Source of the DNA: a virus
Direction: 5' to 3' (one strand)
DNA length: 28,255 nucleotides
Virus record (IMG/VR): IMGVR_UViG_3300031227_000303
Location: 1 to 28,255 of that record
The notes beneath the pieces are model-generated. The model had not been told where the DNA came from. It made no database searches and saw only the letters and a list, made by a program, of their open reading frames with translations. Positions 1,679 to 27,588 of the stretch are shown piece by piece. Within the stretch, counting starts at the first letter, position 1. Each line of letters begins with the position of its first letter. The position numbers and the translations under genes were made by a program.

Positions 1679-1963
1679 ATGAAGATATTCCTTGACGACA
1701 TACGAAACGCTCCTGATAATAGTTGGGTAGTTGTCCGTGATGGGCATATTTGCATGAATCTTCTATCAACTGGAATAGTAACTGAAATAAGTTTTGACCA
1801 TGATTTAGGTGATGACTGGTGTAATGGATATGATGTACTTTGTCATATTGAGTTATTAGTTTGGCATGGAGCTATTTTAAAGCCCATTATTTATATACAT
1901 ACTGATAATGCCGGAGCAAGAAATAAGATGGTTTTGGCTAAGAAAAAGATAGAGGAAATGTGA
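1679..1963 (+). CDS. cREC domain protein (cyclic-phosphate processing receiver-like)
   Basis: A 94-residue protein that is essentially one domain. The N-terminal strand MKIFLDDIRNAP has the LDD-x-R signature, followed by FDHDLG near residue 40, a GYD element, and a late strand with IHTDNAGARNKM. These fit the family annotated as cREC, a receiver-like domain that comparative genomics has linked to processing of cyclic phosphate RNA ends. The next gene is the RNA ligase RtcB, which overlaps this stop codon by one base and itself joins 2',3'-cyclic phosphate ends. The neighbourhood therefore supports an RNA end-processing role. The biochemical activity of the family is a prediction and is not proven by this sequence. 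Confidence 0.75.
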   Translation: MKIFLDDIRNAPDNSWVVVRDGHICMNLLSTGIVTEISFDHDLGDDWCNGYDVLCHIELLVWHGAILKPIIYIHTDNAGARNKMVLAKKKIEEM

Positions 1964-3135
1964 TGAAATGGATTAATACAGATAATATAGTTCTAATTAA
2001 ATCATGGTGTAAAGATTTAGAGGAAGGGGCTTTAGCACAAGTAGAAAATTTAGCTAACCATCCATGCGTGTTTAAGCACGTAGCCATAATGCCAGATTGT
2101 CATGTGGGATATGGAATGCCTATTGGTGGGGTAGTAGCATTAAAGGGTGCAGTAGTGCCAAATTTTGTCGGGGTGGATATTGGCTGTGGGATGTGTGCGG
2201 TAAAAACTACTGCTAAGACTAGTGGGGTTACTACTGGTATATTACATCGGATTATTGATGATTTAAAATTAAGAATTCCAGTAGGTAAAGAACACAGGAA
2301 AGCCCCCCTTGATTGGGGTGGATTTGATGACCCAGATTTATGTTCTATAATTAAGGAGAATCTTAAATCTGCTGGACATCAACTAGGAACTCTCGGATCG
2401 GGCAACCACTTCATTGAGGTACAAGTCGATGAAGAAGGCTATATTTGGCTTATGCTCCATAGTGGTAGTAGGAATATTGGATATAGGATTGCAAATCATT
2501 TTCATAAAAAGGCAGTAGAGTTATGTAAGAGGTGGTATTCTCCCGTGGAAGCAGATAATTACTCGTCTGCTTTTCTTCCCATTGGGACTAAAGAGGCGGC
2601 TGAGTATATAACATCTATGAATTGGGCTTTGGAATTTGCCAAAGAAAATAGACGGATTATGATGAAGATATTTAAAGAAGTTATAAATTCATTTACGGGG
2701 TGTACGTTTAGTGAAGAAATAAACATCCATCATAATTTTGCGGCTATAGAGAATCATTTTCGAGAAAACGTATGGGTACATAGAAAAGGAGCAACAAAGG
2801 CTTATAAGGGGCAATTAGGGATTATTCCGGGTAGTATGGGGACGGCTAGCTATATTGTCAGAGGATTAGGAAATATTCAATCATTTAAGTCTTGCTCTCA
2901 TGGGGCCGGTAGAAATTGTGGTAGGGCAGAATTTTGTAAAACACATACCGTTGAAGAGTGTAACGAGAGTATTAAAGATGTTGTATTTTCTGGATGGGGT
3001 GATAATAGAAAAGGGAATCCTGATATTAGTGAAGCTCCAGAGGCATATAAGAATATTGATGAAGTAATAGAATCACAATTGGATTTGGTAGATATAGTAA
3101 CAAAATTAAGACCTTTAGCAGTAATGAAGGGATAA
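1963..3135 (+). CDS. rtcB: RtcB family RNA-splicing ligase
   Basis: A 390-residue protein covering the whole RtcB fold. The metal site GVDIGCG supplies Asp72 and Cys75, GSGNHF and HSGSRN carry histidine ligands, IHHNF follows, and SHGAGR supplies His313, the residue expected to be guanylylated. The C-terminus ends in a PLAVMKG-type tail as in complete RtcB proteins. RtcB joins 2',3'-cyclic phosphate or 3'-phosphate RNA ends to 5'-OH ends using GTP and manganese. I chose the ATG at 1963, which shares a base with the upstream stop and sits 6 bases after AGAGGA. A GTG at 1960 is too close to that site. With the cREC gene it forms a translationally coupled RNA-repair pair. No key residue appears to be missing. 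Confidence 0.95.
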   Translation: MKWINTDNIVLIKSWCKDLEEGALAQVENLANHPCVFKHVAIMPDCHVGYGMPIGGVVALKGAVVPNFVGVDIGCGMCAVKTTAKTSGVTTGILHRIIDDLKLRIPVGKEHRKAPLDWGGFDDPDLCSIIKENLKSAGHQLGTLGSGNHFIEVQVDEEGYIWLMLHSGSRNIGYRIANHFHKKAVELCKRWYSPVEADNYSSAFLPIGTKEAAEYITSMNWALEFAKENRRIMMKIFKEVINSFTGCTFSEEINIHHNFAAIENHFRENVWVHRKGATKAYKGQLGIIPGSMGTASYIVRGLGNIQSFKSCSHGAGRNCGRAEFCKTHTVEECNESIKDVVFSGWGDNRKGNPDISEAPEAYKNIDEVIESQLDLVDIVTKLRPLAVMKG

Positions 3136-3139
3136 ATAA

Positions 3140-4105
3140 ATGCTTTTAGAAGATATTGGCTTTTACACCCTATCTGATGATAGAGCAAAAAATGTTAGTA
3201 TTGATAGTCCTTTATGGCGGTGTGAATTATTGCTTACTGATAAATGTACCTTTAAGTGTCCTTATTGTAGAGGAATGCGGGAAGATCTTCGTGGGACATT
3301 AACATTCAAGGAAGCAAAGAACGTGGTAGATTTATGGATTGCAGAGGGGCTTAGAAATGTCAGATTTTCTGGGGGTGAGCCTACTGTATGGAAGGACCTT
3401 GTAAAATTAGTGGCCCACTGTAAGAAAAATAATGTAGAAAAAATAGCAGTTTCTACTAACGGTTATTCTGACTTAGATTTATATAAAAGATTAATAGATG
3501 CGGGAGTAAATGATTTTTCTATATCATTAGACGCATGTTGTGCCGCCGTTGGTGATAGAATGGCCGGTAGAAAAGATTCGTGGGATGTGGTAGTAAAAAA
3601 TATTAAAGAAGTAAGTCAACTGATTTATACTACCGTTGGGATGGTTTTTACTAAGGAAAATATAGCACAGGCCAAAGAAAATGTTCTATTTGCAGACTCA
3701 TTGGGCATTTCAGATATAAGAGTTGTTCCAAGTGCTCAGTATAATAAGGCTTTAAAAATTTTAGAAACGTTGCCGAGTGAGATTTTGGATAAGTATCCTA
3801 TTTTAAGATATAGAATAAATAATGTTAAAAAGGGTAGAAATGTTAGAAAAATGACTAAAGAGGACAGTGGTAAGTGTTGGTTGGTTTTAGATGATGCCGC
3901 TATTGCGGGTGGTTATCACTTCCCGTGCATTATTTATTTGAGAGAGGGTGGAAATCCAATTGGTAAAGTTGGGGACAATATGCGGAAAGAGCGTGAAAAT
4001 TGGATGAATGTCCATAATTGTTGGGAAGATAAAATTTGTAGAGAAATGTGTTTAGATGTTTGTATTGATTATAATAATAAAGTGGCTAAATTTAAAGAGA
4101 CATAA
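3140..4105 (+). CDS. Radical SAM protein, MoaA/SPASM-like
   Basis: A 321-residue enzyme with the radical SAM cluster ligands C36, C40 and C43 (CTFKCPYC), GGEP near residue 80, and a STNG and SLD strand pattern of the TIM-barrel core. A Cys-rich C-terminus (CWEDKICREMC, then DVC) and C249/C265-type cysteines suggest an auxiliary cluster as in SPASM or twitch domains. Such enzymes often modify peptides or sugars by radical chemistry. The substrate is unknown here. It starts 5 bases after the rtcB stop in a GGGATAAATAAATG context, and tRNA-Thr follows 7 bases after its stop. Its place between RNA-repair genes and tRNAs leaves RNA modification possible, while the glycan-type genes further on suggest another role. 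Confidence 0.85.
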   Translation: MLLEDIGFYTLSDDRAKNVSIDSPLWRCELLLTDKCTFKCPYCRGMREDLRGTLTFKEAKNVVDLWIAEGLRNVRFSGGEPTVWKDLVKLVAHCKKNNVEKIAVSTNGYSDLDLYKRLIDAGVNDFSISLDACCAAVGDRMAGRKDSWDVVVKNIKEVSQLIYTTVGMVFTKENIAQAKENVLFADSLGISDIRVVPSAQYNKALKILETLPSEILDKYPILRYRINNVKKGRNVRKMTKEDSGKCWLVLDDAAIAGGYHFPCIIYLREGGNPIGKVGDNMRKERENWMNVHNCWEDKICREMCLDVCIDYNNKVAKFKET

Positions 4106-4112
4106 ATAATGT

Positions 4113-4185
4113 GCACTCGTAGCTCAAGTGGTAGAGCATGGGTTTTGTAAATCCAAGGTTGGGGGATCATGGCCCTCCGAGTGCT
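4113..4185 (+). tRNA. tRNA-Thr(UGU)
   Basis: A complete cloverleaf. The acceptor stem is 4113-4119 with 4178-4184, perfect over 7 bp. The D arm is GCTC/GAGC. The anticodon stem is 4139-4143 with 4151-4155, with loop TTTGTAA and anticodon TGT at 4146-4148. A 5-nt variable loop and T stem GGGGG/CCCTC (one G-U) follow. The T loop reads ATCATGG instead of the usual TTCRANY. No CCA is encoded. It reads ACA, a codon used heavily in the threonine tracts of the structural genes downstream. Confidence 0.88.
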
Positions 4186-4200
4186 TTTAAAAAATAAAGC

Positions 4201-4228
4201 TTGTAAAAAGGAATAAATAAGGTATAAT
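4201..4228 (+). promoter_or_regulatory. Possible promoter ahead of the small basic ORF and tRNA-Gln
   Basis: TTGTAA (4201-4206), a 16-bp spacer and perfect TATAAT (4223-4228). The predicted start coincides with the ATG at 4235, so a transcript would be leaderless for the small gene. It would also serve tRNA-Gln. Confidence 0.45.
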
Positions 4229-4234
4229 ATTCAA

Positions 4235-4348
4235 ATGCAGAACTATGACGAGTATGATGAAAAACGGGAACGCAGGGAGTCAAAGAAGGAAAAGCAGAAG
4301 CTCCAGCACAAGGAGCAGAAGAAAAAGAAAAGACGGATAAAGGAATAA
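4235..4348 (+). CDS. Tiny highly charged, basic protein (37 aa)
   Basis: ATG at 4235 opens 37 codons of almost only charged residues: an acidic start (MQNYDEYDEKRERRE) then a Lys/Arg/Gln helix ending in KKKKRRIKE. No Shine-Dalgarno sequence sits at normal distance. The nearest AAGGA is over 20 bases upstream, beyond the TATAAT. Codon choice (CGG, CGC, AGG, CTC, GAG) is richer in G and C than the neighbours. It lies exactly between two tRNA genes. If translated it could be an RNA- or DNA-binding peptide. It could also be a non-translated spacer. Confidence 0.4.
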   Translation: MQNYDEYDEKRERRESKKEKQKLQHKEQKKKKRRIKE

Positions 4349-4353
4349 ATCAT

Positions 4354-4425
4354 TGCCCCATAGTATAATAGGTAATACCAAAGCTTTTGGAGCTTTTATT
4401 TCAGGTTCAAGTCCTGATGGGGCAT
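4354..4425 (+). tRNA. tRNA-Gln(UUG)
   Basis: The acceptor stem TGCCCCA (4354-4360) pairs perfectly with TGGGGCA (4418-4424). The D stem is GTAT/ATAC. The anticodon stem is AAAGC/GCTTT with loop TTTTGGA and anticodon TTG at 4387-4389. The variable loop has 4 nt, and the T arm has a 5-bp stem and a canonical TTCAAGT loop. No CCA is encoded. It reads CAA. Fold quality is high. Confidence 0.9.
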
Positions 4426-4439
4426 TTTTAGGATAAAGT

Positions 4440-4661
4440 ATGACAAGTATTGTTATTAGTGGTTTGATTTTAGCAACTTATCTTCTATATGGAATGAAGC
4501 ACAGGTCAGGCCCATTTATAGGAATAATAGCCAATTTTCTTTTTGCAGGAGCTCATTCCAGACAACCAGAGGATATTGGCTATGTTGTTTTAGGCGTTAT
4601 TTTGGTCTTTGTAAATTTATGGAATTTTGTTAGCTGGAGTAAAGATGATGAAGTGGAATAA
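4440..4661 (+). CDS. Small membrane protein
   Basis: A 73-residue protein with two clear hydrophobic segments, about residues 3-19 (IVISGLILATYLLYG) and 47-63 (IGYVVLGVILVFVNLW). A weaker apolar stretch at about 25-37 (FIGIIANFLFAGA) could be a re-entrant or third segment. The C-terminus is acidic. AGGA lies 7 bases before the ATG. It lies directly after tRNA-Gln and overlaps the start of the methyltransferase gene by 17 bases. No family recognised. Small inner-membrane proteins in phage accessory regions are often superinfection-exclusion or lysis-related, but nothing here proves either. Confidence 0.6.
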   Translation: MTSIVISGLILATYLLYGMKHRSGPFIGIIANFLFAGAHSRQPEDIGYVVLGVILVFVNLWNFVSWSKDDEVE

Positions 4662-7287: not shown

Positions 7288-8486
7288 TGTCAACAAAAGT
7301 AGCGTTATATATGCCGCAAAAACTCCATAGTGGGAAAGGTGTTCCAGTATGGCATTCTCCGGCCCTTGCTTATTTTTCTGCTGTAATAAAACGAGATTTA
7401 CCACAGTTTGAAGTTGTCTATAACCCCCCTGTAAATACTTTATCTCCCGGCGATTGGGCGTTAATTACTTCTGTTACACAGAATTATAATGCCGCCCTTG
7501 AATTGGGGGAGCAATTACATAAACAGGAAATTTGTACAGTTATTGGCGGTCCTCATTTTTCCGCATTACCTAATTTAGAAAATACCCCGTTTGATTTTGG
7601 GGTTATTGGTGAGGGGGAACTGGCCGTTCTTAAAATATTGTGCGGTGACTATGCTCCCGGTATTGTAAAAGAAGAACAAATTGAAGACTTAGATTGGCTC
7701 CCCATTGCTGATAGAGGTACCATCGGTGGTTATAAAGCTAATAATTGGGTAAATGGTTCTAGAGGCTGTCCTTTCAAATGTGCCTTCTGTTCTTCCAGAA
7801 TGATGTGGGGCAGAACCAGATACTTCTCCCCTCAGAGAGTAATTGAGGAAGCTGAGACTATTATAGGGCATAGTCCTTATCTATATTTTGTAGATGATAA
7901 TTTTACTCAAGATGCTGATAGGTTTATTGAAATTTGTGATTTAATGGAACAGAGACAATTTAAAAAGAAATTTTCTCAAATATATGCGAACATCAGGGCC
8001 GATGCATTTAGAAAAATTGATATTCTCCCACATTTGCGACGTGCCGGATTTAAGGGAGTCGCAATAGGGATGGAATCGGGATCAAATAATACTCTGAAAA
8101 AAATACGAAAAGGCGTTACAGTAGAAAAGAATCAAGAAACAATAGATAGGTTACATAAAGGTGGAATAGGGGTGGTAGCTTCTTTTGTTACGGGGATGCC
8201 AGATGAAACAAAAGAAGAAATAGAAAGCACAAAAGAATTTTTAGTTAAAAATAAGGAGAAGTGGTTGATTGCCGTTATTTATCCAGTTATGCCATTTCCC
8301 GGCACGGAGTTATGGGACATTGCAAAAAAGGATGGGTTAGTCTCAGAGGATATGAATTGGGATTTATTGAATGCTGATATGACATCACGAGATTGGGACT
8401 GGGATAAATATATTATCCTATCTGATAAACTTACAAAAGAAGATTTACAGTCCGTTTGTGCTTATTATAAACGAGGTCAGTATTAA
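7287..8486 (+). CDS. Radical SAM protein with B12-binding-like N-terminal domain
   Basis: A 399-residue protein. Residues 1-130 form a Rossmann-like domain with VIGGPHFSALP and DFGVIGEGE, as in B12-binding radical SAM (class B-type) enzymes. The classic DxHxxG cobalamin motif is not evident. The radical SAM core follows with C161, C165 and C168 (CPFKCAFC) and then FVDDNFT, GMESGS and VASFVTGMP as expected for the family. Members carry out methylations at unactivated carbons, ring formation or thiomethylation. The ATG at 7287 overlaps the upstream stop and has AGGA just before it. Its coupling to a methyltransferase and nearness to glycosyltransferase-like genes suggests a shared modification pathway. 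Confidence 0.85.
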   Translation: MSTKVALYMPQKLHSGKGVPVWHSPALAYFSAVIKRDLPQFEVVYNPPVNTLSPGDWALITSVTQNYNAALELGEQLHKQEICTVIGGPHFSALPNLENTPFDFGVIGEGELAVLKILCGDYAPGIVKEEQIEDLDWLPIADRGTIGGYKANNWVNGSRGCPFKCAFCSSRMMWGRTRYFSPQRVIEEAETIIGHSPYLYFVDDNFTQDADRFIEICDLMEQRQFKKKFSQIYANIRADAFRKIDILPHLRRAGFKGVAIGMESGSNNTLKKIRKGVTVEKNQETIDRLHKGGIGVVASFVTGMPDETKEEIESTKEFLVKNKEKWLIAVIYPVMPFPGTELWDIAKKDGLVSEDMNWDLLNADMTSRDWDWDKYIILSDKLTKEDLQSVCAYYKRGQY

Positions 8487-11429: not shown

Positions 11430-14156
11430 ATGCCTACCAAAAAGAAAAACCCACTCACAACAGATACAATCGATTTTGCAAAACTTTATACTCCGACTAG
11501 TAAACAAATGGAAGCACATTTACGACCGGAGAAGTATATATTATTTGGGGGAGCAATGAGAGGAGGAAAATCGGTTCACAAAGATACTATAGTGTTAAGT
11601 AAGACTAAAGGATATATTCCTATATGTGAAGTAGAAAAAAATGATTTTATTTTATCTATGACGGAAAAAGGCAAGTTAGAATACTCAAAAGTATTGAATA
11701 CAAATTATATTCCAAATGAACTTACTTATAAAATTACTACTAGAACAGAACAATCTATTATTTGTAGTTATACGCATCCCGTCTTAACGCAACGGGGGTG
11801 GGTAAGATATAATGAATTAATTTTGGATGATAAGATTGCAATTTCTAGACAGCACCCTTCTCCCGATTTAGAATTTTCTGAGATAATTTATGATGGGTGG
11901 TGTCTTGCTATCATTGCACATTTAATTGGGAATGGGTGCGTAACAGAAGGCACTCCAGTTCTATCTTGTTTTAATTTAAAACAAATTCAATTTCTACTTC
12001 GTATTTTGCCTGAAAATTTTAAATTTACTGAATATAGCGAAGGAAAATTTGGTATTTCAGACCCAAAGAATCCCGGTAAAAATTTATTAACTGATATATT
12101 AAGAGAATTAGGGCTATATGGTAAAACTAGTTATTATAAGTTTATTCCTCATCAATATAAAAATCTTTGTAAAGAAGATTCTGCTTTTTTCTTAAATTGT
12201 CTTTATGGGACGGATGGTTGGGCTTGTTTGGGTGAGAAACGTTGTGAGGTTGGTTACACTAGTACAAGTAAACAATTGGTTCTTGATGTTAAAGATATGC
12301 TGTTAAAATTTGGTATTGTTGGTATGTTTAGTCAGAAAAAAACTCCATCTGACTTTGGAGTTGCTTATACTATATCTATTAAACGAGCCAATGATATTAA
12401 AAAATTTATTAAAGAAATTGGGATTTATGGTAAAGAAACGGGGACTGGGGCTTGTTTAGCTCGATTAGAAAATACTAAGTGCTCATTTAACGGTGATACT
12501 ATTCCGAAGATTATGTTTAAGCATCTTTTGGATGGTATGAGTTGCTCTAAAGGGACTAAGCAATATAAATTAAAGAAAAATTTTAGATATTTAGGACAGC
12601 CCACTGTACAACGTCAATATCTTCAAGAAGCTATTAAAGATTATCCAGAATTTGGTGTTTTGTATGACGTTGCACATTCTGATTTATATTGGGATGATAT
12701 TAGATCGTTGGAGAGCCTTAATAAAGAAGAAAATTTATATGACTTAGAGATAGAAGGAAATCATAATTTTGTAGCTAATAATATTATTGTACATAACTCC
12801 GCTTGGCTCGTTGCAGAAGCTCTGCAACTCTCCTTCGATTACCCCGATAATAGGGGATTTTTATGTAGGCATGAAGCCGCTACATTTATGAAGACCACCT
12901 ATTTAGAATTAATGAAATTTTTACCGCCAGAAGCCATAGCTAATCATAACCAGAGCAGACAGTTTATTGAATTAATAAATGGTAGCCGTATTGACTATGG
13001 TGGGTTGAAGGCCACTGAAGGCGCAAAGTCTTTGGAACGATTAAAATCAATGACATTAGGTTGGTTTGGAATTGATGAAGCGACTGAAACAAATGAAGAG
13101 TTGTTTAAATTATTAATGACTCGTTTATCCTTGAAAACACCACGTTCCCCAAATATGCATTTCAGGGGAATGATAACAGCAAATCCAGAGCCGGGTTGGG
13201 TAAAGCAACGGTTTGTAGACCAACAACAAGATAATTATTATTTTGTATCTGCACTTCCTAAAGATAATCCCCATAACCCAGATACCTATGAGTCAGAATT
13301 ACGGAGAGAGTTAGAAAAAGACCCTGAGTGGGTGGCTCGATATTTAGACGGGGATTGGGAAGTTGATTCCCTGACCCCATTTCCATTGGTATTTCCTTTA
13401 TCTAATATTAGGTCTGCTGTAGATTTGGGGAGATTGGATAAGTGGGAAATTATAGAAGATACTAAAGATAAAGATAAAGATGAAGAATGGAATCCAGAAG
13501 TAGATGGGGAACAAACAGCAGAAGCCAAAGAAAAAAAGAAAAAAGATAATACAACAGTTGTACTCGCCGCTGATATTGGTGCTGGAACTGGTGGTGATGA
13601 GTCAGTGCTTGTTTCAAGAATCAATGGTTTCTGTAAATTAGAATTTCGTAGTAAGAAGATGAACACGATGGCTTTTGCTGGAAAAATAGGCCAGACGGCG
13701 ATAGAGTTAGAGGCAGAAGGTTTTTCAGTTGACAGGATAGTGGTTGATGGGACTGGATTAGGAATTGGTGTTTGTGATAGATTAGATGAAGATGAATATT
13801 TAAGAAAGCGGCTGGAGAGATTTATTGCTGGTGGAAAGCCCAGAAATAAAGAAAGGCTTAAATTAAATAAGCATGAACTGTTGACGAGAGATTATTTTAA
13901 TGCGAAAGCTGAAGCATATTGGGAATTTAGAGAAGCAATGCAGGAAGGTAAGGTATCTTTACCTGATGATACTGATTTATTATCTCAGCTTCAGCCAATT
14001 AGATATAGGTTACGTTCTGATAGACAAATTCAAATTGAATCAAAGGATGATTTAAAAAGGCGTGGACTCAAATCTCCTGACATTGCAGAAGCATTTATTA
14101 TGCTATATGCACGAGGAAGCAGGGTCGCATCTGATTTGAATATTTTTTATATTTAA
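11430..14156 (+). CDS. terL: Phage terminase large subunit, interrupted by an intein
   Basis: A 908-residue precursor, about 499 residues after splicing. The ATPase domain has Walker A GGAMRGGK|S, split by the intein, and Walker B WFGIDEA. The C-terminal nuclease has an RNase H-like core beginning with ADIGAGTGGDES, then VVDGTGLGIG and the late acidic SPDIAEAF. A Lys/Glu-rich linker (about residues 672-706) joins the two. The enzyme powers DNA packaging through the portal and cuts concatemers. GGAG precedes the ATG. It is the first gene of the structural block and is followed by the portal gene after 15 bases. Without splicing the P-loop would be disrupted, so packaging should depend on protein splicing. 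Confidence 0.95.
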   Translation: MPTKKKNPLTTDTIDFAKLYTPTSKQMEAHLRPEKYILFGGAMRGGKSVHKDTIVLSKTKGYIPICEVEKNDFILSMTEKGKLEYSKVLNTNYIPNELTYKITTRTEQSIICSYTHPVLTQRGWVRYNELILDDKIAISRQHPSPDLEFSEIIYDGWCLAIIAHLIGNGCVTEGTPVLSCFNLKQIQFLLRILPENFKFTEYSEGKFGISDPKNPGKNLLTDILRELGLYGKTSYYKFIPHQYKNLCKEDSAFFLNCLYGTDGWACLGEKRCEVGYTSTSKQLVLDVKDMLLKFGIVGMFSQKKTPSDFGVAYTISIKRANDIKKFIKEIGIYGKETGTGACLARLENTKCSFNGDTIPKIMFKHLLDGMSCSKGTKQYKLKKNFRYLGQPTVQRQYLQEAIKDYPEFGVLYDVAHSDLYWDDIRSLESLNKEENLYDLEIEGNHNFVANNIIVHNSAWLVAEALQLSFDYPDNRGFLCRHEAATFMKTTYLELMKFLPPEAIANHNQSRQFIELINGSRIDYGGLKATEGAKSLERLKSMTLGWFGIDEATETNEELFKLLMTRLSLKTPRSPNMHFRGMITANPEPGWVKQRFVDQQQDNYYFVSALPKDNPHNPDTYESELRRELEKDPEWVARYLDGDWEVDSLTPFPLVFPLSNIRSAVDLGRLDKWEIIEDTKDKDKDEEWNPEVDGEQTAEAKEKKKKDNTTVVLAADIGAGTGGDESVLVSRINGFCKLEFRSKKMNTMAFAGKIGQTAIELEAEGFSVDRIVVDGTGLGIGVCDRLDEDEYLRKRLERFIAGGKPRNKERLKLNKHELLTRDYFNAKAEAYWEFREAMQEGKVSLPDDTDLLSQLQPIRYRLRSDRQIQIESKDDLKRRGLKSPDIAEAFIMLYARGSRVASDLNIFYI
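11571..12797 (+). mobile_element. Intein with LAGLIDADG homing-endonuclease domain in terL
   Basis: In-frame insertion of 409 codons (residues 48-456). It begins with Ser (SVHKDTIVLS, block A), has block B as SYTHPVLT, two LAGLIDADG-type motifs (AHLIGNG near residue 170 and CLYGTDGW near residue 265), then block F YDLEIEGNHNFVANN and block G IIVHN, followed by extein Ser457. Removing it restores GGAMRGGKSAWLVAEA, a normal terminase P-loop. It is a Ser1 intein with Ser+1. In the first LAGLIDADG motif the usual Asp is Asn, which may weaken or remove DNA cutting by that half-site. Inteins in terminase P-loops are known; this one looks able to splice. Confidence 0.92.
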
Positions 14157-21047: not shown

Positions 21048-21875
21048 ATGCCTGTAAATCCAGAATCAAGACAAACTGGACTTCTCCCCATTCAAAACTA
21101 TACTGATAGAATTGTAGTTCATACTGGTGGTAGGATAGAAAATGCTGGAGGCCCTGCTTTTGAAGATGATTTCTTAGGTGATGTAATAGCTGACCAGTAT
21201 GCCGCTAATGCTGACGGGGTAGGAGATACTGCCGTTACATCGGAAATTGAAGGCGCTATTATAGTTTATACGTCAGCGGCCAATGATGAAAAGTCTGAGG
21301 TTGCTACCGAGTTGAACTGGGCCGCTTCTAGGTCTGTTATATTTGAAGCAAGAGTACAAATTGAGGGTGATATTACAACGGTTAATGCCCAAGTTGGTTT
21401 GAATGACTCAAAGGTTGAACCGGCTTCTAATCTTCCGTTTAGTGATAATGACACTCCCACAACTGCAACAAATAATGCTATATTGGTAGGATATGATACA
21501 GATGCAGCTACCAATACTAATTGGACGGCATTGACTGTTAAAAGTGCGGGAACACCACAAGCCCTTGATTTAGGTGTGTTACCAGAAGTAGATGAATATA
21601 ATGTAATTCGCATTGAAACCAATACAGATGGAGATGCGGATTTCTTTATAGATGGTACTTACGTTGGAACTTTGGCTGATGCTGTAGATGCTGAAACGCC
21701 CCTTACTCCTTATTTTGGATGTCAAAATAGGTCGGCGGCGACAAGAACTGTGATGGTTGATTATTTACATTTATATCAAAATCGTACTGGTGATGCTGAT
21801 ACTGTTACAACCACTACGACTACAACGACAACGACGACTAGTACGACGACCACAACGACAACCACTACTCCGTAA
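21048..21875 (+). CDS. Lectin-like virion protein B with C-terminal Thr tract
   Basis: A 275-residue paralogue of the previous gene, alike along the whole domain (PVNPESRQTGLLPIQNYTDR, NWAASRSVIFEARV, ETNTDGDADFFIDG, VDYLHLYQNR). The extra C-terminus is TGDADTV followed by 21 residues of Thr with one Ser, and a final Pro. The duplication of the whole gene, followed by addition of the tract, is the simplest history. The tract may be a spacer, a glycosylation target or a joining point that once led into a further domain. AGGAG precedes the ATG. Confidence 0.62.
   Translation: MPVNPESRQTGLLPIQNYTDRIVVHTGGRIENAGGPAFEDDFLGDVIADQYAANADGVGDTAVTSEIEGAIIVYTSAANDEKSEVATELNWAASRSVIFEARVQIEGDITTVNAQVGLNDSKVEPASNLPFSDNDTPTTATNNAILVGYDTDAATNTNWTALTVKSAGTPQALDLGVLPEVDEYNVIRIETNTDGDADFFIDGTYVGTLADAVDAETPLTPYFGCQNRSAATRTVMVDYLHLYQNRTGDADTVTTTTTTTTTTTSTTTTTTTTTP
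21807..21869 (+). repeat. Threonine-codon tract (21 codons)
   Basis: Mixed ACA/ACT/ACG/ACC codons, 20 Thr and one Ser (AGT), at the very end of lectin-like protein B. Synonymous codons are mixed, so the DNA is not a simple trinucleotide repeat. Confidence 0.95.
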
Positions 21876-21933
21876 TGGAGAAGTTTAAATTAAAGTAAGC
21901 TGTTGGACAACTCATTGTTGTTTTCCTAAATTT

Positions 21934-21957
21934 GTGGGGGGATTAAGTTCCCCCTAC
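21934..21957 (+). terminator. GC-rich hairpin in the gap before the next structural gene
   Basis: GTGGGGGG (21934-21941), loop ATTAAGTT and CCCCCTAC (21950-21957) form an 8-bp stem with one G-U. It is stable enough to pause or stop transcription but is followed by an A/T mix and not a T-run. TATAAT at 21962-21967 has no matching -35, so I do not call a promoter. Confidence 0.4.
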
Positions 21958-21992
21958 AATATATAATAGCACCTTTTTTGGAATAGTTTAAT

Positions 21993-22391
21993 ATGTATCC
22001 AAATAAAACTTTCAATGTTTCAGATAGGCTTGTAATTGGACCAGTTGCTCGTACGTTGGAGACTTTGTTGGGCCGAGAAATTTCGTTGGAACTTCAGTGG
22101 CTAACTGTTCGTAATGTTGGTGATGCTACCATTTATTTTTCAACAGATACAGCGAGTACAAATTCGGCCCCTTTAGCAGAAAATGAAGTTATTACTTTTG
22201 TTCAAAATCAAGCTAATTTTAATGAGTTATCTTTTATTACCGGAGGCGCGGCGCAACCATTAGTTGTTATTGAAGGTAGAGTTCATTGGGAAATTCTTGG
22301 TGCAGCTACCGCATTTCCTACTATTACTACTACTACAACAACTACTACGACTACAACAACAACTACTACAACAGCAGCACCACAACAATAA
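21993..22391 (+). CDS. Small virion protein with C-terminal Thr tract
   Basis: A 132-residue protein. A beta-rich body (ELQWLTVRNVGDATIYFSTD, VVIEGRVHWEIL) is followed by 16 Thr residues in a row and AAPQQ. The body resembles small phage proteins that cap or decorate, and the WLTVRN-x-G-x-x-TIYFS pattern is like immunoglobulin- or cupin-type strands, but I cannot name a family. The ribosome binding site is weak (GGAA). It lies between the two lectin-like genes and the tail-tube-like gene. The tract makes it one of five Thr-tailed or Thr-linked proteins here. Confidence 0.55.
   Translation: MYPNKTFNVSDRLVIGPVARTLETLLGREISLELQWLTVRNVGDATIYFSTDTASTNSAPLAENEVITFVQNQANFNELSFITGGAAQPLVVIEGRVHWEILGAATAFPTITTTTTTTTTTTTTTTTAAPQQ
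22326..22373 (+). repeat. Threonine-codon tract (16 codons)
   Basis: Sixteen successive ACN codons (Thr only) near the C-terminus of the small virion protein, followed by Ala-Ala-Pro. Confidence 0.95.
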
Positions 22392-22425
22392 AGAATTATC
22401 ATATAGTTAGTGGAGTAACAAAAGT

Positions 22426-23364
22426 GTGGCTCGATTTTCAGGTAAAGATGGTTATTTCAAGGTCAATGAAACAGGAAGTGTGCCAGAGGAAACTCTGGCT
22501 ATCACTAACTGGACTTTAAATATAGAATCAGAGCAAATAGAGAACTCCGGTTTAACCAGCGATGGTTGGCGGGAGTTTTTCATTGGAATGAAGTCTTGGA
22601 CTGTCTCTGCTTCCGCGCATTGGGAAACCACTGAAACTAAAATATATAGATCCGACCCTACTCCTCCAATGATTTCAGTAGATAATGAATTAGATTGGCA
22701 AGGAATTTCTGATTCTACTTATGGGTATCAATGGCAAGGAACAGTAGTTGTTTCTAGGGTATCAGTGGAAGTTGGAATTGACGCAACAGTTAAATATAAT
22801 ATAACTGCAATAGGTACTGGGGAATTAGTTTATCCTATAGACGTTGACCTTACTACAACAACTACAACGTCAACTACTGCTGCTCCAACTACAACTGGAG
22901 CCCCCACAACAACGGAACCGCCGTCTTCAACGGCATTTCCTCCAATTACAACTACGACTACCACTACAACGACAACTACTAGCACTACGACTACTACAAC
23001 TACGACTACCAGTACGAGTACAACTACTACTACGACCACTAGCACAACCAGCACTACAACGACAACTACTAGCACTACGACCACAACGACTACTAGTACA
23101 ACAACCACAACTACAACGACGACTACAACAAGCACGACTACAACGTCAACTACTACGACAAGTACCACCACTACTAGCACAACGACGACTAGCACAACGA
23201 CTACTACTACGTCAACAACAACAGCAGAATATTTATTTACAGATTATTTTGACGATGAATCATTAGACGCAAGATGGGTCAAAGAATATGGTACTGCTGG
23301 AGCAATTAGTGAAACTGCAGAGCCAGGATTCTTACAAATAACACCAAGTAAGGGAGGTATTTAA
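22426..23364 (+). CDS. Tail-tube-like protein fused to a long Thr-rich region
   Basis: A 312-residue protein starting with GTG (GGAG upstream). Residues 1-140 have the order seen in siphovirus tail-tube proteins: FSGKDGYFKV, WTLNIESEQIE, SDGWREFFIGMKSW, a central strand pair, and VEVGIDATVKYN with GTGELVY at the end. After that come about 124 Thr-rich residues with Ala/Pro/Ser/Glu breaks. The last about 45 residues (YFDDESLDARWVKEYG) look like only the first strands of a lectin-like domain, cut short by the stop. The tube-type fold before the head-tail connector gene is an unusual order, so it may instead be a decoration protein with the same fold. Confidence 0.6.
   Translation: MARFSGKDGYFKVNETGSVPEETLAITNWTLNIESEQIENSGLTSDGWREFFIGMKSWTVSASAHWETTETKIYRSDPTPPMISVDNELDWQGISDSTYGYQWQGTVVVSRVSVEVGIDATVKYNITAIGTGELVYPIDVDLTTTTTTSTTAAPTTTGAPTTTEPPSSTAFPPITTTTTTTTTTTSTTTTTTTTTSTSTTTTTTTSTTSTTTTTTSTTTTTTTSTTTTTTTTTTTSTTTTSTTTTSTTTTSTTTTSTTTTTTSTTTAEYLFTDYFDDESLDARWVKEYGTAGAISETAEPGFLQITPSKGGI
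22852..23223 (+). repeat. Long Thr/Ser tract with Pro-Ala breaks
   Basis: Codons 143-266 of the tail-tube-like gene, nearly all ACN, with Ser roughly every 5-12 residues and a Pro/Ala/Glu/Phe patch near 22878-22950. Mucin-like composition. Confidence 0.95.
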
Positions 23365-23366
23365 CA

Positions 23367-24014
23367 ATGAGTTACCTTGATCAGAAGCGAGAATTAGAGA
23401 TAGAACCATATGAAGCGGCAGCAGAAGAAGCTGGAACGAGTGAAGTTTCTGACGTTCAGGAAAAAGAAGTTATTTATCCTATAGATAAAACAACACGGAG
23501 ACAAAAATTAGGATATTCTTGTCTATTAAAAGAAGCGGCTCGTAGAGAACATGCACAAAAACAAATTGATAATAAAGATGGGAAACTCTCAGATGAGGAT
23601 TTTTCTTCTTATAAAGAAACGTATGAAGTTAGTATGAGGGCAATTAGTAAATCTATTAGTGATAGAAAACAAGATTCTACACTGGAAGATTTAAATGAAG
23701 TTGATTTAGTAAATCATATCACATTTGATAAAATAAATATTCCAGTAGAAAAAGATACGTGGGAAAAGCAGTTGGGTTGGGCGTTAGATGCTAGAGAAAA
23801 AATGCGTAGAGACCATAATGAAAAGGGAACTGCTTATAGAGATGGCGATTGGTCTAATTCTCAATGGGTTTATTTTAAAGATTCCTTTGATGCAAAAAGT
23901 ATGGTGCTTTCAAAGAAAATTAATGACTTGAAAGATAATCCTCCTCAAGCGGATATAGATTCAATAGTAATTATTGATGTAGTTAAAGACAAAATAAAAA
24001 TGGTTGAAAAATAA
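23367..24014 (+). CDS. Hypothetical helical protein with an internal duplication
   Basis: A 215-residue, charged, mostly helical protein. Two halves align: KTTRRQKLGYSCLLKEAARR...KETYEVSMRAISKSISDRK (from about residue 41) and KDTWEKQLGWALDAREKMRR...KDSFDAKSMVLSKKINDLK (from about residue 131). Both run LG-(Y/W)-x6-R-E-(H/K) and end in an SKSI/SKKI helix. So the gene arose by internal duplication of a unit of about 60 residues. GGGAGG precedes the ATG. It sits two bases after a Thr-rich gene and directly before another, but has no Thr tract itself. It may be a chaperone or linker for these virion proteins. Function unknown. Confidence 0.55.
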   Translation: MSYLDQKRELEIEPYEAAAEEAGTSEVSDVQEKEVIYPIDKTTRRQKLGYSCLLKEAARREHAQKQIDNKDGKLSDEDFSSYKETYEVSMRAISKSISDRKQDSTLEDLNEVDLVNHITFDKINIPVEKDTWEKQLGWALDAREKMRRDHNEKGTAYRDGDWSNSQWVYFKDSFDAKSMVLSKKINDLKDNPPQADIDSIVIIDVVKDKIKMVEK

Positions 24015-26114
24015 ATGGCTTATGAAGACCTAACTGGCTTTACGCAGGTTGACCCGAACAGTAATTACACAACAACAACCATAAAGTGTACCTTTGCCGC
24101 CTTAAGGCGCGATGCAGATGCCTACGTTTATAAATCATATGGCTCAAATTATTTTGGTGATTTTGCCCACAGTTATGATTTTGAGTGGACGGCACAAACC
24201 GCGAACGCCGAACTGGTTGGGCTTTGGGCGGTTACCGATACTCCTGCCAGTCACGGTGATATGTGGGCTAATGCCAATGGCCTTGTCACGTATATTGTTC
24301 GTGGCTGGCAGGGAACAAAATTAGGACTTGCTAATTATGCTGGGCATAATGAGGACCACTCCTCTGTGCTTTCAAAAGATACCCAGTATTGGGTAGATGT
24401 TTCCCGAGATGGCACTGCTGGGGAAGCTAAGATATATTCCAATGCAGCCAAAACAACCCTTGTTGATACGGTGTCTGTGGTGACATCCGAACAAGAATAT
24501 GAATATTTAATGTGTGGCTGTTCAAGGGAAGATGGAAATGATGGTGGCGACACATTTACTGGTTATAGCGAAAATTATGATTTAGATGCTGATGCAACTA
24601 CTACAACTAGCACCACTACAACAACTACAACCACCTCTACTACAACTACTACGACAACAACGACGACCACGAGCACCACTACGACGACAACTAGTACAAC
24701 TACAACAACTACAACAACTACGACTACCAGTACAACGACGACTACGACTACAACGACAAGCACCACTACTACGAGCACAACGACGACAACAACGTCTACT
24801 ACTTCAACAAGCACAACGACAACTACCAGCACTACTACAACGAGCACAACGACTACCACTACAACGGAAGCTCCAACTACAACAACAACGACTTCTACAA
24901 CAACAACAGCCGGGGCTGATTATACATTTACGGGCGCGGGAACGACCGATTCCAATGGTGATTATACTGAAAATGGAACAAATTTAGGTAAGCCAGCTTA
25001 TGAAGGCCCAAATAATTATTGGTTGAGCTTTGATAATGCAATGGGTGATTATTGGTGTATTACCCCTGCTGGAATTTGGCCGGTCGAAGCGGCTGATTAT
25101 TTTCTTGCAGGTAGTGGTGATACTCCGCCATTGGGGGAATATGCGGCTTATAATGGAGACGCACCGAATGGAACATTGGCAGAAGCCACAACTACCACAA
25201 CAACAACTACGACCACTTCTACTACAACTACTACAACTACGACTAGCACGACAACCACTACTACAACTAGTACTACGACAACAACGACGACCACGAGCAC
25301 CACTACGACGACAAGCACCACTACTACGAGCACAACGACGACAACAACGTCTACTACAACTACTGAGGCCCCTTATGGCCCATGTTGGGCGTATCAAATA
25401 GCGGATAGTGATTTTGATGTATATACTTATTTTACTAACAATGGAACTGTAAATAGAATTGAAGGTGGGCTACACTGTGCTAATGATGCAGAAACAGCAA
25501 GAGCATCAATAAGATTATATTATTATAATGGAAATTGGGAAATTGGTTTAAAAATAAATAGTAATTCTGAAGTTATTGATAATGCGTATGCGTTTGACGC
25601 AGTTTATTTTAGAATGAAAAGAGTTGGAAGCACTTTTACTTATTACCATGCCCCTCCGGGATATTATGCTTGGGGATTAATTCCGTGGGAAGAAATTACA
25701 CCTACCATTGATAATATTAGTACTGCTGATTCTATGAATTTGGGATTGTATGGAGTAACTAATGGAAATGAGATACAGAGTACATTAGATTATAATTTCT
25801 TTATTGTATTAGTGGGGGGGCCTACTAAGACCACTACTACGACTACTACTACCACCACTACTGCGGGGCCTGTTCCAGATGATTGTTGTGCCGATTGTTA
25901 TTGTGATACTGCTAGTCAAGGAACAGTTTTAGGCGAGTGTACGTGGGATAGTGGTGATTGTGGAAGCGCAGGTACAGGTTTTTGTACTTACACTGAGACT
26001 GCTAGCATTTGTGCGACGGGCATTGGTGGCGATGCTTATGGTGCAGATTGTACGGCTGGAACTGGAACGGAAACTTCTTATGATTATACAAGTGATAATT
26101 GTGTCCCGGTTTAA
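24015..26114 (+). CDS. Large multi-domain virion protein with three Thr tracts
   Basis: A 699-residue protein. Domain 1 (about 1-194, MAYEDLTGFTQVDP at the start) is concanavalin-like and paralogous to the gene at 26794. Thr tract 1 (codons 195-298) follows. Domain 2 (about 299-391, YTENGTNLGKPAYEGPNNYW) resembles short binding repeats of environmental phages. Thr tract 2 (392-450) follows. Domain 3 (about 451-603, CWAYQIADSDFDVYTYF) is lectin-like. A short tract, then a Cys-rich end (about 617-699) with CCADCYC and CTWDSGDC follows. Expected role: receptor- or glycan-binding fibre or decoration protein. It follows the previous stop immediately, suggesting coupled translation. Confidence 0.65.
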   Translation: MAYEDLTGFTQVDPNSNYTTTTIKCTFAALRRDADAYVYKSYGSNYFGDFAHSYDFEWTAQTANAELVGLWAVTDTPASHGDMWANANGLVTYIVRGWQGTKLGLANYAGHNEDHSSVLSKDTQYWVDVSRDGTAGEAKIYSNAAKTTLVDTVSVVTSEQEYEYLMCGCSREDGNDGGDTFTGYSENYDLDADATTTTSTTTTTTTTSTTTTTTTTTTTSTTTTTTSTTTTTTTTTTTSTTTTTTTTTSTTTTSTTTTTTSTTSTSTTTTTSTTTTSTTTTTTTEAPTTTTTTSTTTTAGADYTFTGAGTTDSNGDYTENGTNLGKPAYEGPNNYWLSFDNAMGDYWCITPAGIWPVEAADYFLAGSGDTPPLGEYAAYNGDAPNGTLAEATTTTTTTTTTSTTTTTTTTSTTTTTTTSTTTTTTTTSTTTTTSTTTTSTTTTTTSTTTTEAPYGPCWAYQIADSDFDVYTYFTNNGTVNRIEGGLHCANDAETARASIRLYYYNGNWEIGLKINSNSEVIDNAYAFDAVYFRMKRVGSTFTYYHAPPGYYAWGLIPWEEITPTIDNISTADSMNLGLYGVTNGNEIQSTLDYNFFIVLVGGPTKTTTTTTTTTTTAGPVPDDCCADCYCDTASQGTVLGECTWDSGDCGSAGTGFCTYTETASICATGIGGDAYGADCTAGTGTETSYDYTSDNCVPV
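24597..24908 (+). repeat. Threonine-codon tract 1 (104 codons)
   Basis: Nearly all ACN with scattered Ser codons and one Glu-Ala-Pro break near the end. It links domain 1 to domain 2. Confidence 0.95.
25188..25364 (+). repeat. Threonine-codon tract 2 (59 codons)
   Basis: Links domain 2 to domain 3. Its second half (25271-25357) is built from two exact pieces of tract 1. Confidence 0.95.
25271..25357 (+). repeat. Exact repeats of tract 1 joined with a 69-bp deletion
   Basis: 25271-25314 equals 24647-24690 exactly (44 bp). 25308-25357 equals 24753-24802 exactly (50 bp). The offsets differ by 69 bp, or 23 codons, so tract 2 looks like tract 1 with an in-frame internal deletion. The junction is a shared 7-base ACGACAA. 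Confidence 0.85.
25830..25862 (+). repeat. Short threonine-codon tract 3 (11 codons)
   Basis: Eleven ACN codons between domain 3 and the Cys-rich C-terminal domain of the large virion protein. Confidence 0.9.
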
Positions 26115-26129
26115 CAGGAGATAAAATAA

Positions 26130-26573
26130 ATGGTTTGTCCTTATGAAATATCCAGAACAGATAAAAATGCTAAATGCTCTCAGCTTTGTTCTGCTTCTGG
26201 ATTTACTGTTTCAGTTAGTCTAAAGTTGTGTGAAAAATGTGATAAAAAACCCCTTGAAACTTCAACATCAGTGAAGGCTATGTTGGTATCAGCACTACGC
26301 TCTAGGTTAATAGCTGGAGATTGTCCTCGTTATCAAGTCCCTAACCCTGTAGATATAAAAAAGGCAATGACAAAGTTAAAATCTCTAATCAGTAATGATG
26401 CGTTAGAAGAAGTTTTTGAGAGTATGATTTATAATCAAAGTAGGATAAAAGAATCTGATGGGGGACATCCCCTTACTACTTTAAATACTAAATTTAATGA
26501 GATAGCAGTTGAATTTGAAATGCAGCCTGTACTAGAAAAATTAGCAGGAAAACATAATGGCAGTAGTAAATAA
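26130..26573 (+). CDS. Hypothetical protein with Cys-rich N-terminus
   Basis: A 147-residue protein. Cysteines at about residues 3, 16, 20, 34 and 37 (CPYE, CSQLC, CEKC) are spaced for a metal or Fe-S site. The remaining 100 residues are helical, with NPVDIKKAMTKLKSLI and EVFESMIYNQ. No family recognised. AGGAG precedes the ATG, and the stop overlaps the next gene by 17 bases. Together with the following zinc-ribbon gene it interrupts the run of lectin-like virion genes, so the pair may be non-structural. Confidence 0.55.
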   Translation: MVCPYEISRTDKNAKCSQLCSASGFTVSVSLKLCEKCDKKPLETSTSVKAMLVSALRSRLIAGDCPRYQVPNPVDIKKAMTKLKSLISNDALEEVFESMIYNQSRIKESDGGHPLTTLNTKFNEIAVEFEMQPVLEKLAGKHNGSSK

Positions 26574-26790
26574 TACGCCTTTTATAAACATTTTAGAAAG
26601 TCTCTCCATGCTTAGAAATGGTGAAGATAATATAGTAAAAGCACGTAGAGCTATTTGTAATGAATGTTCTGAACATTATTTTAAGAAGAATGTATTAAGA
26701 TGTAAAATTTGTGGGTGTTCCGACCCCACCACTAAGCGCCCCCGTTGTCCTGTGGGTAAATGGGGAAAATCTTTAGCAGAATTGAAGTAA
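26557..26790 (+). CDS. Small zinc-ribbon protein
   Basis: A 77-residue protein. C-x2-C (CNEC) near residue 34 is followed by CKICGC near residue 49 and a Cys-Pro near residue 64 (RCPVGKWG), the pattern of a rubredoxin-like zinc ribbon common in phage structural regions. The N-terminal 30 residues form a helix. It overlaps the previous gene and precedes the lectin-like gene at 26794 by 3 bases. Many phages encode such a protein next to tail or fibre genes, with unknown role. Confidence 0.6.
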   Translation: MAVVNNTPFINILESLSMLRNGEDNIVKARRAICNECSEHYFKKNVLRCKICGCSDPTTKRPRCPVGKWGKSLAELK

Positions 26791-26793
26791 AAT

Positions 26794-27588
26794 ATGGCAT
26801 ACGAAAATTTAACTACATTCACTGAAGTTGACCCTAATGGGGATTTTACGCTAACTGCTACTCGATGTACAGTAGATACTATGCGTAGAGATGTAGCTGC
26901 ATGGGTTTTTAAATCGTATGGAGCCAATCACTTTGGTGATTTTGATCACGATTTTACATTTGCTCACACAGGTGGAACTGTAAATACAGTATCAAATTGG
27001 GGTGTTTGGGGTGTTACTGACATTCCCGGTACAATTGCTGACAATGAAGATGGCATTTATATTGAAATTGATATGTCATATCCGCGCCTTCGGTTCCTGA
27101 ATCTTGGGGTATATAGTGCGGATGCTTGGAATGGTTTAGTAGCCCTTACAACTTATTACTGTACAGTCACTCGTAATACTACTACTGGACAATTAAAGAT
27201 TTATTCTGATTCTGCTCGAACGATACTATTAGACACCCTCTCTGTTACAGCAGCAGCAACTCAATTTGAGTATTTATTGGTAACTCAATCAACAGAATCA
27301 GGTATTAATCCTGACCAAACGATATCCGGTTATACGGAGAATTTTGATTTAAAAGGTGGTGGAGTTACTACCACAACCACAACGACGACTACTACTTCAA
27401 CAAGTACAACGACAACAACGAGTACAACGACCACCACAACGAGCACTACTACTACGAGCACAACGACCACAACAACCACAACTACGAGTTCGCCTATTTT
27501 TACAGTAGCAAGCGTATTAAGCAATGAGTTATCTATTACAGGAACTTTAGCTCAGAATTTAACTATCAGTAGTACATTAGAACAATAA
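26794..27588 (+). CDS. Lectin-like virion protein with internal Thr tract
   Basis: A 264-residue paralogue of domain 1 of the 699-residue protein: MAYENLTTFTEVDPNGDF against MAYEDLTGFTQVDPNSNY, then AWVFKSYGANHFGDFDHDF, GQLKIYSDSARTILLDTLSV and SGYTENFDL in the same order. After about 191 residues comes a 40-codon Thr/Ser tract and a short end (FTVASVLSNELSITGTLAQN) with two near-repeats of an SxLxxxLxIxxTL pattern. The ribosome binding site is weak. Likely a second version of the same virion-surface lectin with a different tail. Confidence 0.62.
   Translation: MAYENLTTFTEVDPNGDFTLTATRCTVDTMRRDVAAWVFKSYGANHFGDFDHDFTFAHTGGTVNTVSNWGVWGVTDIPGTIADNEDGIYIEIDMSYPRLRFLNLGVYSADAWNGLVALTTYYCTVTRNTTTGQLKIYSDSARTILLDTLSVTAAATQFEYLLVTQSTESGINPDQTISGYTENFDLKGGGVTTTTTTTTTTSTSTTTTTSTTTTTTSTTTTSTTTTTTTTTSSPIFTVASVLSNELSITGTLAQNLTISSTLEQ
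27367..27486 (+). repeat. Threonine-codon tract (40 codons)
   Basis: ACN codons with Ser breaks in the lectin-like gene. A 20-bp piece, ACTACTACGAGCACAACGAC, is also found in tracts 1 and 2 of the large virion gene. Confidence 0.95.

Follow-up and report, generated by a model that had tools for sequence, protein, structure and literature searches.

The question raised by positions 1679-4425 of the IMG/VR virus record IMGVR_UViG_3300031227_000303 is why a gene for a cyclic-phosphate processing receiver (cREC), the RNA ligase gene rtcB, a radical S-adenosylmethionine (radical SAM) gene and two transfer RNA (tRNA) genes stand there in one tight row, and whether their products act together. The window analysed was the whole record, positions 1 to 28,255 (28,255 bases, G+C = 37%), which also carries phage structural and packaging genes (capsid, portal, protease, terminase). 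On balance, and without great assurance, we favour the view that the row is a phage RNA-maintenance (repair) cassette. What is new here is a recurrent radical SAM partner for phage RtcB-based RNA repair, and the strongest evidence for it lies in relatives, not in the cREC-RtcB pair: the radical SAM-RtcB and RtcB-tRNA links are both stronger than that pair. The row follows two minus-strand genes, is co-directional, and consists of:

1470-1667, + strand: open reading frame (ORF), first of the row, upstream of cREC
1679-1963, + strand: cREC, 94 amino acids (Pfam PF20274, E = 7.8e-21)
1963-3135, + strand: rtcB RNA ligase, 390 amino acids from ATG 1963 or 391 from GTG 1960 (PF01139, E = 3.3e-107)
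3140-4105, + strand: radical SAM enzyme, 321 amino acids (Radical_SAM PF04055, E = 4.1e-25)
4113-4185, + strand: tRNA-Thr, anticodon UGU (ARAGORN; Rfam RF00005, 54.6 bits, cut-off 29), no CCA encoded
4235-4348, + strand: putative basic short ORF between the two tRNAs, 37 amino acids, with a very high content of Lys, Arg and Glu
4354-4425, + strand: tRNA-Gln, anticodon UUG (ARAGORN; RF00005, 61.3 bits, cut-off 29), no CCA encoded
4440-4661, + strand: ORF after tRNA-Gln

A sequence-only reading made before this analysis had listed the same five genes (cREC, rtcB, radical SAM, tRNA-Thr and tRNA-Gln), and Pfam, ARAGORN and Rfam bore it out. The one-base overlap that it reported between cREC and rtcB was also confirmed, the cREC stop TGA (1961-1963) and the rtcB ATG (1963) having one base in common; spacing was -1 for cREC/rtcB, 4 bases for rtcB/radical SAM and 7 bases for radical SAM/tRNA-Thr. 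The Pfam matches of cREC (75 bits versus a cut-off of 27), RtcB (359.8 bits versus 27) and the radical SAM protein were all far over the gathering scores; the family assignments are secure and the gene calls in the row are not due to chance.

The association of the radical SAM gene with RtcB was assessed with a three-member query, from which the best 80 of 90 viral relatives were taken. After the window and two uncultured huge phages had been added, 80 rows were over the score limit, making 72 groups at 90% identity (here, as in all group counts below, one row was kept per 90% identity group). In 7/72 groups RtcB lay no more than 1 kb from the radical SAM gene, and in 12/72 no more than 5 kb, window included (11/71 without it). 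The linkage within 5 kb takes 11 changes on the radical SAM tree (trees were built with FastTree and had modest support), and the RtcB proteins concerned have a median identity of only 33%. Over whole records bearing the radical SAM gene, RtcB was counted in 8/50 and 11/32. The distance between the two genes was shorter than expected from random placement on 16 records (combined p = 5e-7). These were 16 of the 19 two-gene records, the near-duplicate G045 and two huge-phage records with the genes more than 100 kb apart being excluded; with the two huge-phage records added the value was 2.5e-6, and when two contigs below 10 kb were also removed, 3.2e-5. We conclude that this gene is a member of an apparently unnamed phage family recurrently linked to RtcB, and that the enzyme is a real partner in the cassette. 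In the open-access literature, as far as its accessible text goes, no paper linking a phage radical SAM gene with RtcB and tRNAs, or with RNA repair, was found.

One of these loci, L229, has the order NAD (nicotinamide adenine dinucleotide) synthase, QRPTase_N-domain protein, tRNA-Ile, radical SAM, an ORF of no convincing family, RtcB, tRNA-Asn, tRNA-Arg and tRNA-Gln(UUG). The NAD synthase and the phosphoribosyltransferase-like gene upstream (L229:3948-5808) agree with published links between NAD and RNA repair. Elsewhere, in L244:6516-10019, a radical SAM gene stands within a phage tRNA array (21 tRNAs in the locus), with tRNAs directly on both sides.

RtcB matches were found in 659 of 50,697 phage records. 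Two samples were drawn, set 1 being the best 80 of at least 579 matches and set 2 the best 80 of at least 585, less five records already in set 1; an actinophage clade (42 loci, 34 groups) formed set 3. In sets 1 and 2 together, a tRNA lay within 300 bp of RtcB in 19/148 viral groups versus 21/622 control ORFs of 200-600 amino acids taken from the same loci (p ≤ 5e-5 by paired resampling across 141 loci). Set 1 alone gave 11/74 groups versus 2/228 controls and set 2 gave 8/74 groups; for set 3 the figure was 5/34. The density of tRNAs was 0.41 per kb at 0-300 bp from RtcB versus 0.09-0.14 farther out in set 1, and 0.30 versus 0.04-0.14 in set 2. Among 15 isolate records, an annotated tRNA was present within 2 kb of RtcB in four (YP1, Pumpernickel, Count and Bongo) and not in the other 11. 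In Microbacterium phage Pumpernickel, the gene before RtcB (L397:1319-1771), annotated as an ADP-ribosyltransferase, matches the Macro domain (PF01661, 8e-7).

In sets 1 and 2 one tRNA predominates next to RtcB, a preference weakened by broader grouping and by set 3. tRNA-Pro(UGG) was among the near tRNAs in 11/19 groups (6/11 in set 1, 5/8 in set 2) and made up 11/31 near tRNAs versus 5/157 of those more than 1 kb away (p = 1e-6). Grouping at 70% gave 7/21 near versus 5/133 far; under single linkage at 60% (38 groups, one row each) the figures were 0/5 and 3/73, and in actinophage set 3 none of the nine near tRNAs was tRNA-Pro(UGG). On the RtcB tree 10 changes are required for the 11 cases, which have differing tRNA sequences. 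An oddity was revealed in L192 (IMGVR_UViG_3300004154_000029): a complete tRNA-Pro(UGG) (8358-8432; Rfam, 63.7 bits) is embedded in frame in the coding sequence of rtcB, at an RtcB loop missing from relatives, so that maturation of this tRNA would sever the rtcB messenger.

RtcB ligates 3'-phosphate or 2',3'-cyclic phosphate ends, such as many toxins leave, to 5'-OH ends. The window protein is identical to Pyrococcus horikoshii RtcB (PDB 1uc2) at D95, C98, N202, H203, H234, H329 and H404 (P. horikoshii numbering), which we take to be the metal- and GMP-binding positions. All seven are retained, and the gene appears intact from its sequence. Among the sampled loci the closest RtcB relatives were those of L154, L155 (60%) and L219; in the last, rtcB ends at 2596 and is followed by tRNA-Pro(UGG) at 2605, tRNA-Thr(UGU) at 2940 and tRNA-Glu at 3019.

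The part of cREC is less straightforward. Its residues D6, D7, R9, D40, D42, H74 and N77 (motifs LDDxR, DHDL and HxxN) are invariant in 11 sequences, window included. Outside the window, 146 cREC loci were sampled: 86 viral (57 groups; the collection scan kept the best 80 of 217 cREC matches), 56 from bacterial genomes and four from isolate phages. They reached up to 8 kb to either side of cREC (4-5 kb in the isolates), or less where the contig was shorter, as many were; cREC was re-found in 145 of them. RtcB was near cREC in none of the 146, and cREC lay within 2 kb of RtcB in only one of the 155 loci of sets 1 and 2. Set by set, cREC was found in 1/80 loci of set 1 (L209, 1.9 kb upstream; Pfam E = 5e-15), 1/80 of set 2 (L370, 5.3 kb away) and 0/42 of set 3. 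The pair was therefore rejected as a standard operon, and the lack of recurrent association that the sequence-only reading had named as refuting came close to being observed, although a reordered row exists in L281. There the order is a small conserved protein described below, radical SAM, cREC, then an RtcB cut by the contig end. The cREC-RtcB pair is thus real in the window and in at least one reordered relative, yet mostly not found elsewhere. On the radical SAM side, cREC lay within 5 kb in 4/72 groups including the window; among IMG/VR records bearing the radical SAM gene, RtcB was present in 17/80, cREC in 9/80 and both in 4/80, where multiplication gives about 1.9, a weak excess.

RtcB itself opens 2',3'-cyclic phosphates, and because it handles them on its own, cREC should be dispensable for it. 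This leaves room for another role, an alternative that we hold only tentatively: cREC would erase signals by which the host learns of damage (tRNA fragments with cyclic phosphates, or derivatives of cyclic ADP-ribose), and RtcB would carry out repair in parallel. Cyclic phosphate processing by cREC is a published prediction (accessible text of PMC7824862 and PMC9503650), the former positing cyclic ADP-ribose or 2',3'-cyclic nucleotides as targets and a tie to NAD systems. NAD genes adjoin RtcB and radical SAM in L229, and a WYL-regulator-like family, read by eye with no search made, was near cREC in 5/108 groups. Against it, no experimentally tested cREC activity was found, and the window revealed no CARF, WYL or NAD gene.

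The tRNAs invite a simpler explanation, that they supply an AT-rich phage with readers of its heavily used codons, above all those of its poly-threonine structural proteins, with RtcB either incidental or keeping the tRNA stocks whole. Thr makes up 13.1% of the codons in the structural genes of the window (up to 36% in single genes), ACA being 30% of these Thr codons, and 65% of all Gln codons are CAA. Several proteins of the structural region (21048-27588) contain stretches of Ser and Thr as long as 92 residues, encoded with mixed Thr codons. However, ACT (41%) beats ACA in the structural genes, Gln is just 2.5% of codons, and codon supply gives no reason for RtcB adjoining tRNA genes in unrelated phages; as a full account of the row it looks doubtful. 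The earlier proposal that the tRNAs are repaired or replacement tRNAs thus stands in part: RtcB-tRNA adjacency recurs in phages, and tRNA-Thr has a rival explanation in codon demand. Those of the window may be substrates of repair, may replace cut tRNAs, or may meet codon demand.

The radical SAM enzyme is predicted to be SPASM/twitch-like. It has the CX3CX2C motif (C36, C40, C43) and further cysteines at C246, C263, C300, C304 and C308; in a 60-member alignment C40, C43, C246, C263, C300 and C304 were invariant and C36 and C308 at least 90% conserved. Its AlphaFold2 model had a predicted local distance difference test score (pLDDT) of 94, and Foldseek against the PDB gave 7vob, BlsE, as the best match (TM 0.67), followed by SkfB, SuiB and MoaA. 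The suggestion that the enzyme modifies tRNA found nothing in its support, the model resembling SPASM/twitch enzymes instead; known tRNA-modifying radical SAM families (MiaB, TYW1 etc.) gave only generic low-score profile matches and were absent from the 50 best folds listed. Viperin (pVip) was likewise rejected, its match (E = 9.2e-13) covering only residues 31-162, i.e. the shared radical SAM core. Judged by its fold class, the enzyme may act on a peptide, protein, nucleotide or sugar rather than carry out a known tRNA modification.

A second neighbour has to be considered here. In 25/72 groups a small conserved protein of about 90 amino acids (hereafter SP; e.g. L281:7536-7802 and L308:7735-8001) was found within 2 kb of the radical SAM gene, which makes it commoner there than RtcB. 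It matched nothing in Pfam or PHROG, nothing convincingly among PDB sequences, and no fold at E ≤ 0.001 (AlphaFold2 pLDDT 94.6). Radical SAM and SP could be a separate two-gene system acting on a protein or metabolite, with the nearness of RtcB secondary, and several of the closest folds being peptide or nucleoside enzymes would suit this. Since the window has no SP, and SP, radical SAM and RtcB occur together in 6/25 SP groups, we regard this explanation as rather unlikely for the row.

Least likely of these alternatives is a mosaic accessory region in which cREC, rtcB, radical SAM and tRNAs are separate cargo with no joint pathway: the genes downstream of the row are such cargo (glycosyltransferase, methyltransferase, Dam, B12-radical SAM), cREC and RtcB seldom meet, and the radical SAM gene of L234 adjoins a glycosyltransferase in a record with no RtcB anywhere, but RtcB is closer to radical SAM than random placement allows, the RtcB-tRNA excess holds against ORFs of the same loci, and cREC, an accessory gene, has RtcB nearby in 0/57 viral groups versus 11/71 for radical SAM (Fisher p = 0.001).

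Several observations weigh against the repair cassette all the same. Besides the rarity of the cREC-RtcB pair and the codon demand that may explain tRNA-Thr, 129/148 RtcB groups have no tRNA within 300 bp, 60/72 radical SAM groups have no RtcB within 5 kb, and the radical SAM family is rare when sampling starts from RtcB (1/80, 0/80 and 0/42 in sets 1-3). The window tRNAs are Thr and Gln, whereas tRNA-Pro(UGG) prevails next to RtcB elsewhere. Finally, no anticodon nuclease was identified. The RNA-repair interpretation originally given to this locus is supported in part: the RtcB catalytic positions and the RtcB-tRNA and radical SAM-RtcB recurrences speak for it, the rarity of the cREC-RtcB pair against it.

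If the row is a repair cassette, it could work as follows. In the infected cell, metal-independent RNases of the host (toxins, or anticodon nucleases of abortive infection) would leave 2',3'-cyclic phosphate and 5'-OH ends, which RtcB would reseal, and the adjoining tRNA genes would provide the repair substrate or replacement tRNA. cREC most likely would open the cyclic phosphates that RtcB leaves unsealed (signals, fragments, ADP-ribose derivatives), and not prepare ends for RtcB. Cyclic-phosphate tRNA fragments are described as inducing a bacterial repair operon in the accessible text of PMC7790460. A bolder proposal, which we offer as speculation with little expectation that all of it holds, is that phages possess a hitherto unrecognised translation-rescue module, built from RtcB, co-transcribed tRNAs and a SPASM-like radical SAM enzyme dedicated to it, in some phages with cREC or SP; tRNA-Pro(UGG) would mark a widespread, undiscovered host anticodon nuclease, and the radical SAM modification (of tRNA, nucleotide or protein) would resist or signal the attack. 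The repeated company of RtcB with tRNAs, often one in particular, and with one radical SAM family offers targets for tests: the tRNA that is cut, the host enzyme responsible and the addition made by the radical enzyme.

Two features of the window lie outside the row. The gene for the terminase large subunit (11430-14156) is split by a LAGLIDADG-domain intein (PF14890, PF14528), placed just past the Walker A motif as judged by eye. On the minus strand, 2-205 encodes the start of a further protein resembling radical SAM enzymes, truncated where the record ends, with weak Fer4_12 and Radical_SAM matches.

Parts of this picture are already in print: protection by RtcB with tRNA was proposed in 2011, and a cREC-ligase linkage in 2021. 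The idea that phage RtcB and tRNA guard against tRNA cleavage is thus an old one (PMC3203893; compare PMC7881722; in each case as far as the accessible text goes). Cluster K1 mycobacteriophages have, like the window, a phage RtcB with a phage tRNA (tRNA-Trp), for which the authors speculate protection from host tRNA cleavage (PMC3203893); unlike in the window, the tRNA is near the left end, away from RtcB, and the accessible text describes no cREC or radical SAM gene. Proteus phage Privateer differs in that no cREC or radical SAM partner is mentioned in the part of its report available to us (PMC7881722). Operonic linkage of cREC to several RNA ligase families is in print (PMC7824862); unlike in the window, the accessible text names neither an RtcB pair nor a radical SAM gene for the jumbo-phage linkages.

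The use of RtcB in phages, where it is common, is a guess. In phage T4, Pnkp and Rnl1 repair tRNA-Lys cut by PrrC, and the likeness to what is proposed for the window lies in a phage-encoded reversal of anticodon-loop cuts. The chemistry differs: T4 has a kinase/phosphatase and an ATP-dependent ligase joining 5'-phosphate to 3'-OH, whereas the window has one GTP-dependent ligase for 3'-phosphate and 5'-OH ends. If the cassette acts as we suppose, phage counter-defence would extend from the kinase-ligase route of T4 to a one-enzyme route.

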